Shown piece after piece: positions 25,328-61,011 of a DNA stretch of 64,000 nt. The stretch spans positions 806,001 through 870,000 of the forward strand of contig NZ_JAVDDX010000001.1 in the NCBI RefSeq assembly GCF_030848575.1, in the 5' to 3' direction. Position 1 is the stretch's first letter. Every line of letters starts with the position of its first letter. A program made the translations under genes and the position numbers. Source of the DNA: Haloarcula sp. H-GB4. Its GTDB lineage: Archaea > Halobacteriota > Halobacteria > Halobacteriales > Haloarculaceae. The notes below the pieces were generated by a model that had not been told where the DNA came from, ran no database searches, and saw nothing but the letters and a program-made list of their open reading frames with translations.

Positions 25328-26245
25328 ATGGTACATCGCATTCTCTGTGTGGACCCGGACGAGGACGTCTGCGAGGAGACGGTCGACAAGATCCAGTCGG
25401 AGTTGGCGGACCAGGACCTCCGCTTCGAAACGGCTGGGTCGCTGGCCGACGCAGAGGCCGAGCTGACAACGGACACTGCGGCAATTATCACCGAGTACGA
25501 GCTCCCCGACGGCACCGGGTTTGACCTCATCGGGGCGGCACAGACGGCCTGTCCAGACGCGGGGTGTATCCTCTACACCGACACCGACCCGGACACCATC
25601 GATACTACGGAGCTTCGTGGCTCGATTACGGAGTACGTTGGTAAGAATTCGATTTTTGGATCGGAGCGCCTCTCGCAACTGCTGGGGAAGACTATCGAGA
25701 CGCGGGTTCAGGCGACGTATCCCGTCCCACAAAACGAGACCGAGCGGTTGGCGGCGCTCCGGTCGTATGACCTCGACAGCCCGGATCTGCTGGCATCGCT
25801 GGACCGAACTACCAACCTCGCGGCTGACCACTTCGATGTTGATCGGGCCTCGATAAACATCATCAACGAACACAGCCAAGATTTCTTGGCCTGCTACGGC
25901 GACGCTCAGGACTGGGAGTCGATGGACCGCGAGGACTCTATCTGCACGTTTACCATTCTCGAAGACGATGACGTGATGGCCGTCGAAGATGTCACGGAAG
26001 ACCCTCGCTTTGAGACCCGGAGCGAGACGCTCCTCAGCATGGGTATCCGGGCGTACATGGGAGCAAACCTGATCACGTCGAATGGGCTGGTCATCGGGCC
26101 GCTGTGTGTGTATGATGACAATCCACGGGAGTTCTCGGCAGCCGACAAGGCGTACCTCCGTGATCTCGCCGATGTCGCGATCGACCTCATCGAACTCCAC
26201 TCGCGGCTGGATAGCGTCGCCGGCGACACGGGGAGAGCGCAATGA
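25328..26245 (+). CDS. receiver-like + GAF protein with altered phospho-acceptor
   Basis: A 305-residue protein with an N-terminal receiver-like domain (1-125) and a C-terminal GAF domain (about 145-295). The acidic pocket of the receiver is VDPDED, but the usual acceptor aspartate is glutamate E56 in IITEYELPDGTG, which cannot form a normal aspartyl phosphate and may mimic one. The GAF half contains the FAEDSICTFTI-like segment (MDREDSICTFTILEDDD) and VIGPLCVYDDNPREFS typical of haloarchaeal GAF sensors. ATG 25328 is preferred; the frame is open back to 25208. It overlaps the next gene by 4 nt. Confidence 0.8.
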   Translation: MVHRILCVDPDEDVCEETVDKIQSELADQDLRFETAGSLADAEAELTTDTAAIITEYELPDGTGFDLIGAAQTACPDAGCILYTDTDPDTIDTTELRGSITEYVGKNSIFGSERLSQLLGKTIETRVQATYPVPQNETERLAALRSYDLDSPDLLASLDRTTNLAADHFDVDRASINIINEHSQDFLACYGDAQDWESMDREDSICTFTILEDDDVMAVEDVTEDPRFETRSETLLSMGIRAYMGANLITSNGLVIGPLCVYDDNPREFSAADKAYLRDLADVAIDLIELHSRLDSVAGDTGRAQ

Positions 26246-26928
26246 CCACAGAGACTGATGGTGGGTACGAGTTCCCCGACGGTATCCCGATCAACCCGAT
26301 CGATCCGGGGACCATCGTCCTTGTCGCTGGGCCGGCCCTCAGCCGGGCGGAGGCCGTCGCACGAACGCTCGTTGCCGGCGGGAGCGACGCCGAGGAGGGG
26401 ATGCTATACATTTCGACGAATATGACCGCCGAAAAGCTGCTGAACGCCTGTCAGCAAACCCAACCGTCGTTTGACGACACCAGAATGGGGGTCATCGACT
26501 GCAGCGGGCAAGACGCCGCGCAGTCCGCGCTGGGCGAGCGCGTGAAGTACGTCTCGACACAGAGTGATCTGACCGGCATCGGGATGAAGTTCTCGGCACT
26601 GTACGAGGGGCTGTACGGCACCGTCAAACACGGTCGTGTCCGAACTGGGCTGATAAGCCTCTCATCGCTGTCGATGTACGTCGACCTGCGGGCGCTGTTC
26701 CAGTTTGCACAGACCGTCTCAGGTCGCATCGACAGCGCCGGGGGCCTCGGTGTGCTCGCTATCGATCCGACGACCCATGACACGAAGGCGGTTAACACGC
26801 TGAGCCAGGTCGCAGACGGGCGTATCGAGGTCAGAGAGTCCGAGAGCGGCACGGGTGATGGAGAACTCCGGGTCCGCGGTTTGCCAGACCAGCCCAGCGG
26901 CTGGCAGCCGTTCACCCTGTCCGAATAG
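26242..26928 (+). CDS. RecA/KaiC-superfamily-like protein lacking the P-loop lysine (DUF7504-like)
   Basis: A 228-residue protein with a RecA-like fold: strand TIVLVAGPAL at the Walker A position, a later hydrophobic strand VRTGLISLSSLSMYVDLRAL at the position of Walker B, and LGVLAIDPTTHD. The Walker A lysine is absent (GPALSRAEAV), so ATP binding is doubtful. This matches a family of haloarchaeal KaiC-like proteins that go with signalling proteins. Its ATG overlaps the receiver-GAF stop by 4 nt, so the two are coupled and probably work together. The assignment to DUF7504 is from memory of the family and should be checked. Confidence 0.7.
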   Translation: MTTETDGGYEFPDGIPINPIDPGTIVLVAGPALSRAEAVARTLVAGGSDAEEGMLYISTNMTAEKLLNACQQTQPSFDDTRMGVIDCSGQDAAQSALGERVKYVSTQSDLTGIGMKFSALYEGLYGTVKHGRVRTGLISLSSLSMYVDLRALFQFAQTVSGRIDSAGGLGVLAIDPTTHDTKAVNTLSQVADGRIEVRESESGTGDGELRVRGLPDQPSGWQPFTLSE

Positions 26929-60018: not shown

Positions 60019-61011
60019 CTAGGCTGTCGTCACGTCGATCCGCGTGCCACCAGATTTGCTCTCGCCGACCGACACGGTCCACCCGTGGGCTCTCGCCGCC
60101 GTGTCGACGAGGAACAGTCCGTATCCCTCTCCTTCCCGCGTTGTCCCGAAACCTTGGTCGAACACTTCACTGCGGTCCGATTCGGGAATCCCCGGGCCGT
60201 CATCGGCCACGTAGAACCCAGCCTCGGTGGCACCGATGGTGACGGTTACGGGTTCCTTGCTGTGTGTGACCGCGTTGTCGAACAGCTCGCGAAGGAGTAA
60301 CTGTAGTCGGTCGTTTTCGGCGTCGACAGACACGTCAGTCACCACTTCCAGCGTCGCATTCTCGTAGCTCTCTGCGGCCCAGACTTCAGTGGCTACGTCA
60401 GCCAGTGCAAGCGAATCGGTTTCTAAGACGGGACACGCGACGCTTCCGATGCGAGAGAGATCGGTCAGCAGCGACTCGACTCGGTCGACGGACCGAAGCA
60501 ATGCGTCTTCATGGGGCTCACCAATGTCCAGTAGCTCTAACCGGCCCATGACAACGTTCAGTGGGTTCTTCGCGTCGTGGGAGATGCCGCTCGAAATCTC
60601 GTCCCACTGTCCGGCACCGACCCGCCAGTCCGTCGGCCACCGGGTTGCGTACGCTTCAAGTTTCGCGGCTAGCAGGGATGCCGGCGCTTCTGCGGTCACA
60701 TAATCAGTGACGCCGGCCCGGAGCGCTTCGGTGACCCGGTCCGGCTCGGGGTCGGTCCCGACAAGCACAATCGGAATCTCGGCCCCGCCTGCCCGCAGTT
60801 CCTCGAATACCGCAACCCCGTCGTACTCACCGTCGTCACCGAGAACGACACCTCTGACGTCCCCGTCGTTCAGCCGGTCCTGTACAGTGCTCGTGTCTCG
60901 GGCGGCCTCGGCTGTTGTCCTGTCCGTGGTCAGTGCTTCGGAGAGTGTCTTAGCCAGATCAGTCGCTTCGGTACCGGCCACGAGATAGACGGTGCCACGA
61001 GCAGGCGTCAT
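60019..61011 (-). CDS. histidine kinase with receiver-like N-terminus
   Basis: A 330-residue soluble kinase. The N-terminal half resembles a receiver (VRGVVLGDDGEYDGVAVFEEL, PIVLVGTDPEPDRV, TDYVTAEAPASLL), but the conserved lysine is replaced (TDYVTAE). The kinase core follows: H-box ISSGISHDAKNPLNVVMG, N box RELFDNAVTHS, G1 DDGPGIPES, G2 GEGYGLFLVDTAAR. It lies downstream of sucD, 43 nt away, in the same direction. Confidence 0.82.
   Translation of the reverse strand: MTPARGTVYLVAGTEATDLAKTLSEALTTDRTTAEAARDTSTVQDRLNDGDVRGVVLGDDGEYDGVAVFEELRAGGAEIPIVLVGTDPEPDRVTEALRAGVTDYVTAEAPASLLAAKLEAYATRWPTDWRVGAGQWDEISSGISHDAKNPLNVVMGRLELLDIGEPHEDALLRSVDRVESLLTDLSRIGSVACPVLETDSLALADVATEVWAAESYENATLEVVTDVSVDAENDRLQLLLRELFDNAVTHSKEPVTVTIGATEAGFYVADDGPGIPESDRSEVFDQGFGTTREGEGYGLFLVDTAARAHGWTVSVGESKSGGTRIDVTTA

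Follow-up and report, generated by a model that had tools for sequence, protein, structure and literature searches.

What might two adjacent proteins do in signalling when each appears to have lost the residues on which the usual chemistry of its fold depends? The question is raised by a gene pair in a 64,000-nucleotide stretch (hereafter the window) of Haloarcula sp. H-GB4, whose haloarchaeal genome comprises 4.19 Mb. The first gene (25328..26245, + strand) encodes a 305 aa protein with a receiver-like domain at residues 1-110 (25328..25657, +), a GAF domain at residues 153-283 (25784..26176, +) and a long C-terminal helix, and is called REC-GAF below; its ATG at 25328 agrees with the starts of orthologues. 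The second (26242..26928, +) encodes a 228 aa protein of the DUF7504 family. As a first-pass annotation of the window had reported, the genes overlap by 4 nt, the ATGA at 26242..26245 (+) containing the stop of the first and the start of the second. A gene for a tRNA_SAD-domain protein lies upstream of the pair and EamA and SurE genes lie downstream. The nearest named relatives found for the pair belong to H. japonica and H. argentinensis, where the REC-GAF protein is 91-92% identical.

Pfam placed the GAF domain (PF01590; 53 bits against a gathering threshold of 22.4, E 6.6e-14) and the DUF7504 protein (PF24336; 96.3 bits against 27, E 4e-27) above their cut-offs, and the receiver below its own (Response_reg, PF00072; 14.4 bits against 30.2, E 0.043). 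The KaiC-like family PF06745 was absent from the families matched by the DUF7504 protein at E<=1. AlphaFold (AF2) models built from alignments of 45 REC-GAF and 42 DUF7504 sequences reached a pLDDT of 89.7 with a pTM of 0.64 for the first protein and a pLDDT of 90.3 with a pTM of 0.89 for the second. The receiver part of the REC-GAF model aligned to 3cu5 with Z 17.7, many other receivers giving Z of about 16-18, and its GAF part resembled that of DcsBis, a GAF-GGDEF protein (4zmu; Z 23.3, 32% identity over 168 residues), a structure that a sequence profile (A1) also matched at E 4.2e-32. The DUF7504 model matched KaiC-like proteins, with Z 22.0 to PH0284 (2dr3) and Z 20-21 for the best KaiC rows, and KaiC was found by sequence as well, using profile A2 (7.2e-6). 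The protein that the first-pass annotation had described as RecA-like is, more exactly, a predicted inactivated KaiC-like protein of DUF7504.

In the first gene the codon GAG at 25493..25495 (+) encodes the glutamate E56 of the motif IITEYELPDG, and this is taken as the phospho-acceptor position because a proline follows at +4 and a glycine at +8. The second acid of the beta-1 pair, a direct metal ligand in receivers according to excerpts of a review (PMC12632262), has been lost as well: the window receiver retains D9 and has P10, and among the 14 sequences of its clade the position is P in 12 and G in 2. The conserved Thr/Ser and Lys of receivers are present as T84 and K106, and E56, T84, Y103 and K106 are all kept in 14 of the 14 clade members, the window gene included. 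With its modelled receiver fold and missing catalytic residues, the domain fits the description of a pseudo-receiver. Such a receiver is unusual but not unique in the host genome, since the acceptor is D in 27 of the 30 strongest matches among 41, with E, S and G once each. These three non-Asp host receivers (L234, L235 and L236), which are distinct from that of the window pair, lie in long open frames of 648-1333 aa. Elsewhere in the window, a short histidine kinase (60019-61011, -) carries a degenerate N-terminal receiver that scores 21 bits, below the Pfam cut-off.

The acceptor was then read across the family. Among 107 unique REC-GAF relatives it is E in 55, A in 40, G in 6, D in 3, R in 2 and S in 1. 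Of these sequences 24 came from a contig scan with a pattern that demanded E or A at the acceptor, and they were thus unable to show D; the unbiased subset of 83 unique sequences, obtained by a protein search of 116 family genomes plus region fetches, gave E 40, A 31, G 6, D 3, R 2 and S 1. Matches of about 80 bits or more in the family genomes were used, and aligned stretches shorter than 200 residues were excluded from the counts. The three sequences with D are related and form one small clade placed among sequences with A. The REC-GAF tree requires no fewer than 12 gains or losses of the E label and 13 of the A label, at least nine of each on well-supported branches. As judged from these alignments, the missing acceptor characterizes the family as a whole, Glu is constant in some of its branches only, and phosphomimicry therefore cannot be the general purpose of the loss. 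The interchange of E and A argues against a family-wide requirement for negative charge at residue 56.

These counts bear directly on an earlier proposal that the receiver is fixed "on". Since E and A interchange, and the acceptor may also be G, R or S, with D in three sequences, the proposal does not stand as a family rule; for the window clade it may still hold, the conserved E, T84, Y103 and K106 there being compatible with a Glu phosphomimetic. There Glu56 might mimic phospho-Asp via T84 and K106, giving a constitutively active receiver controlled only by the amount made. Glu accompanied by T and K is listed as a phosphomimetic hypothesis in the review excerpts (PMC12632262), the structural matches of the REC-GAF model include two receivers with Asp changed to Glu, ComE D58E and HupR D55E, and K106 is retained in 40 of 55 E-bearing receivers vs 2 of 40 A-bearing ones. 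This raw association is strong, but it is confounded by descent: independent pairs gave 3.2 for, 0.3 against and 4.5 with no difference, with a median p of 0.25, and E-K106 coupling was therefore rejected as proof of phosphomimicry. The alanine at the acceptor of 40 of the 107 relatives, the additional loss of the second acid (DD2) and the presence of a GAF domain, which implies an input, also speak against a permanently active receiver, and we regard this explanation as unlikely.

REC-GAF proteins (E<=1e-30) occur in at least 116 of 391 genomes of the class, a lower bound because six candidates were scored per genome, and in 37 of 86 genera, all of one order. The first-pass annotation had suggested examining whether the gene pair is conserved, and it is: a DUF7504 gene lies directly behind REC-GAF in 101 of the 107 unique loci, no adjacent DUF7504 being detected at the remaining 6. 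An exact 4-nt overlap is found in 71 of the 101 pairs and a spacing within 30 nt in 100, as measured by taking the ATG or GTG closest to the upstream stop as the start, which favours short gaps. Distances within the two protein families are correlated over 100 pairs (r=0.81; best of 1000 permutations, 0.09), and the pair has therefore probably been co-inherited for a long time; part of this mirror-tree correlation is shared organismal descent. A natural fusion was considered as proof of contact and set aside, as no ORF of the examined loci contained both parts. No constant third neighbour gene was seen in the window clade using a heuristic gene caller.

Within the genus the pair is patchy, with a close orthologue in 2 of 14 genomes, host included (the high-scoring G333 and G413 are outside this count). 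One REC-GAF relative, L019, appears to be split over frames, and in L067 (6904-7030), a member of the window clade that is not among the 101 paired loci, the DUF7504 partner apparently lacks most of its middle, which could be an assembly error in what is a metagenome bin. Such cases and the patchiness would suit decaying or selfish gene remnants. Comparison of the window genes with those of H. japonica and H. argentinensis, however, gave dN/dS values of 0.04-0.11, within an overall range of 0.04-0.13, indicating purifying selection. Because these values are low, the window genes are not decaying; decay was rejected on this ground, and with REC-GAF so widespread in the class we find the remnant explanation barely credible.

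The second gene reads VAGPALSRAE at its degenerate Walker A motif (GPALSRAE, 26329..26352, +), where alignment with GK-type relatives places R35-A36 in the position of G-K, bearing out the earlier observation that the Walker A lysine is missing. Among 139 unique DUF7504 proteins, GK was found in 0 of 101 paired with REC-GAF vs 34 of 38 that do not lie behind REC-GAF, the latter mainly from 40 chosen regions among the matches listed (Fisher 2.5e-28, kinship ignored). The first-pass annotation had recognized that orthologues with D and K at the two sites would make the substitutions private or mere annotation errors. That explanation was rejected, as both changes are shared by orthologues, with Glu throughout the window clade and GK in none of the paired proteins, so that the two losses are conserved together.

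The non-GK exceptions among the 38 are L203, L200, L207 (GR) and L197 (RK). In a FastTree phylogeny, where long branches were flagged, L203 and L200 fall within the clan linked to REC-GAF, and the remaining 36 rows (34 GK, one GR and one RK), which lie outside that clan, form one side of a branch. The K-less and GK forms thus seem to reflect essentially one ancient split, with 3 changes on the tree, and because of this the match between lysine loss and pairing does not represent many independent events. A scenario of repeated co-loss of Asp and Lys was rejected for the same reason. L203 adjoins a purQ-like gene, as many pairs do.

The 38 proteins that do not lie behind REC-GAF include a second kind of receiver partner. 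In 23 of them a receiver ORF like that at L207 adjoins the DUF7504 match, which starts at -14 to +49 nt relative to the end of this ORF, and 13 that have no L207-like receiver neighbour were classed as solo. The L207 protein served as the query for these 23 REC-HalX-like partners, one of which (L187) is truncated at a contig end; Pfam found Response_reg and HalX in two of the 23, and a third stretch, with approximate coordinates, gave no family. The receivers of the two kinds of cassette appear to be of different lineages. Of 24 non-HalX receivers in the host, 20 gave 54-83 bits with a profile of REC-GAF receivers and the other four 0.5-24, and the profile gave 15-34 bits against six HalX-type host receivers, a label assigned by sequence with Pfam support only for the L219 gene. 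DUF7504 is thus, as far as these comparisons go, joined to two receiver lineages, REC-HalX and REC-GAF, and because two lineages are coupled to it, receivers are recurrent partners of the family.

The motifs differ among these groups. A lysine at position 36 is found in none of the 101 REC-GAF-linked proteins, in 22 of 23 REC-HalX-linked ones and in 13 of 13 solo ones. Position 138, which we take to be the Walker-B-like position on the basis of the alignment and the KaiC motif, is I138 in the window protein; D138 is present in 4 of 101, 1 of 23 and 13 of 13, respectively. Both motifs are thus retained in the solo branch, most REC-HalX-linked proteins have the lysine only, and most REC-GAF-linked ones have lost the two. 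A three-step loss with D138 confined to solo proteins was rejected, as D138 also occurs in the other two groups. With a modelled KaiC fold and the ATPase motifs lost, the window protein fits the inactivated KaiC-like (iKaiC) description.

Some unconventional chemistry might nevertheless persist, with a nucleotide or phosphoryl group held by other residues. The lysine is shifted one place on in 8 of the 101 REC-GAF-paired proteins, and because of these and the four with D138, nucleotide binding may be possible in some of them; three REC-GAF sequences have D at the acceptor, and D109 and R134 are invariant in all 137 DUF7504 proteins compared, whether REC-GAF-linked, REC-HalX-linked or solo. The window pair, in contrast, has no acceptor Asp, second acid, Walker A lysine or Walker-B-like Asp, and we consider residual chemistry of this kind very unlikely. 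The invariance of D109 and R134, along with that of G23 in all 101 REC-GAF-paired proteins, is what would be expected of interaction surfaces once the nucleotide site had gone.

Haloarchaea therefore carry both "live-looking" and doubly degenerate versions of a receiver plus DUF7504 cassette. In both, the receiver gene is followed directly by DUF7504; the REC-HalX cassette differs from the window pair in having D at the acceptor of all 22 readable receivers next to DUF7504, K36 in 22 of 23, HalX rather than GAF, and a receiver of another lineage. The host genome holds both DUF7504 forms, a GK form at 1535725-1536411 and the window form at 832242-832925. The GK paralogue, L155, passes the PF06745 cut-off (28.3 bits against 26.6) and belongs to a REC-HalX cassette (L155:5155-6415; host genome about 1535.2-1536.4 kb). 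Among 14 genomes of the genus, host included, the identity of its DUF7504 protein is 96-100% in 12 and 91% and 78% in the other two, so that it is better conserved than the window pair. Within the GK clan, the REC-HalX-like plus DUF7504 cassettes in L193 and L194 (GPPMLGK) stand apart on a diverged branch of their own.

KaiC-family proteins form rings, and the presence of both forms in one cell raises the possibility of an antagonist: the Walker-dead DUF7504 protein might enter the GK-bearing, REC-HalX-linked oligomers and poison or redirect them under GAF control. The distribution of the two types counts in its favour. Of the 116 family genomes, 46 had both, 21 REC-GAF only, 18 the HalX type only and 31 neither (Fisher p 7e-4, kinship ignored), using cut-offs of E<=1e-20 for REC-GAF and E<=1e-60 for DUF7504 proteins close to the HalX-linked one. 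Against it, 21 of the 67 REC-GAF genomes are without a close HalX-type DUF7504, as counted by DUF7504 similarity and not by a HalX neighbour, and we consider antagonism quite improbable. A wider version of this idea, which we likewise rate as a long shot, is that DUF7504 is a dedicated receiver partner existing in two matched states, with the dead cassette regulating the live one through mixed KaiC-like oligomers. In this version the live-looking state is the Asp receiver-HalX protein with GK DUF7504 and the doubly dead state the Glu/Ala receiver-GAF protein with K-less DUF7504. If true, the pair would be a ligand-gated regulator that uses neither phosphate nor ATP, and two-component output would be set by competition between catalytic and pseudo-catalytic copies.

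The explanation that we prefer, and for which we judge the chances to be about even, is an inactivated KaiC-like scaffold joined to a pseudo-receiver that works independently of phosphorylation and is gated by its GAF domain. The two genes would form a translationally coupled, non-enzymatic signalling module. The pseudo-receiver could not be phosphorylated by the normal route, the GAF domain would provide the real input by binding a small ligand, and the KaiC-like partner would no longer bind or hydrolyse ATP in the usual way. Instead, the DUF7504 protein may serve as an oligomeric platform on which the receiver docks and which passes the signal to other signalling proteins; in the window clade, Glu together with T84, Y103 and K106 may hold the receiver in an active-like state. 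The retention of the pair in many haloarchaea suggests that the proteins are no longer enzymes and now provide a scaffold for binding. What selection has maintained is the folds, the coupling, the GAF domain and some invariant residues of the partner (D109 and R134). The substitutions, their conservation, the pairing, the predicted folds and the purifying selection are observations, and the loss of both chemistries, a physical complex, ligand gating by GAF and a scaffold output are inferred from them.

Parts of this arrangement resemble known systems. Archaeal REC-PAS/GAF regulators, as described in excerpts of one survey, combine a receiver with a GAF domain and lack an output domain, as does the window gene; they were predicted to act by protein-protein contact, and none of the class had been studied by 2018 (Galperin et al., 2018; PMC5847659). 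The window receiver differs from these in having lost the acceptor Asp, and a bicistron with a KaiC-like partner is unmentioned in the excerpted text (PMC5847659). The iKaiC proteins, which have a KaiC fold without a working ATPase site and were proposed to be parts of signalling hubs (Makarova et al., 2017, as cited in the PMC5847659 excerpts), are like the window DUF7504 protein in fold and in the missing ATPase motifs; in the present family, a dead receiver goes with the dead branch and a live-looking one with the GK branch. Pseudo-receivers share with the window domain a receiver fold without the acceptor, and according to the excerpted review Glu is what most often replaces the missing aspartate, DD2 loss is common, about 10-15% of archaeal receivers are without Asp, and the authors, writing in 2025, knew of no functional study of an archaeal pseudo-receiver (PMC12632262). 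What distinguishes the present case is the coupling of a pseudo-receiver to a pseudo-NTPase.

The nearest analogue found is BcsE of enterobacteria, which according to excerpts of a published study combines a KaiC-overlayable RecA-like domain with a ruined Walker A motif, a receiver and a ligand-binding GGDEF domain, the latter two degenerate (PMC7439463). BcsE is a single bacterial polypeptide, whereas the window pair is archaeal, consists of two chains and has GAF instead of GGDEF; we cite it as a precedent by analogy and claim no homology of the whole. A literature search found no paper naming DUF7504 and only unrelated papers for "HTR-like protein", and among the matches listed for papers on KaiC-like proteins, HalX, the RecA superfamily and pseudo-receivers, no title or abstract start named a receiver/KaiC-like pairing. 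The pairing thus seems to be unreported, although it may have been mentioned earlier by Makarova et al. (2017). Pseudo-receivers are common and inactivated KaiC proteins are a published archaeal class. Here a single tight bicistron combines the two, and the genome also carries a matched cassette of the live-looking kind. Catalytic and pseudo-catalytic versions of a module can thus be compared cleanly, and some haloarchaea of this group have workable genetics.

Several neighbourhoods of the paired and solo genes are of interest in their own right. A paralogue of the pair in the host genome (L154:4268-9026; about 254.8-259.5 kb) lies inside a purine-biosynthesis neighbourhood, in which Pfam identified, in sequence, SAICAR synthetase, a formyltransferase encoded on the opposite strand, REC-GAF, DUF7504, PurS and GATase_5 (PurQ-like). 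Similar purine clusters were recognized by similarity in L098, L101, L105 and L106, with Pfam support for an ACT-formyltransferase in L101. In Haloplanus ruber (L072:7604-9952) a REC-PAS-HisKA-HATPase kinase comes after the pair, and the receiver of this kinase likewise has Glu at the acceptor (SEYDMPD); histidine kinases beside the pair were checked with Pfam at three loci (L072, L158 and L161). The solo branch with the Walker-B-like Asp includes L175-L178, L182, L185, L186, L195, L196, L198, L199 and L204, with Walker A motifs such as GPPLTGKRR and GPALSGKRR. In at least five solo loci (L176, L177, L178, L185 and L198) the DUF7504 gene lies next to a short gene whose product carries a motif resembling IAVVGCSTTPGKAAH and is presumably a CoA-binding protein.
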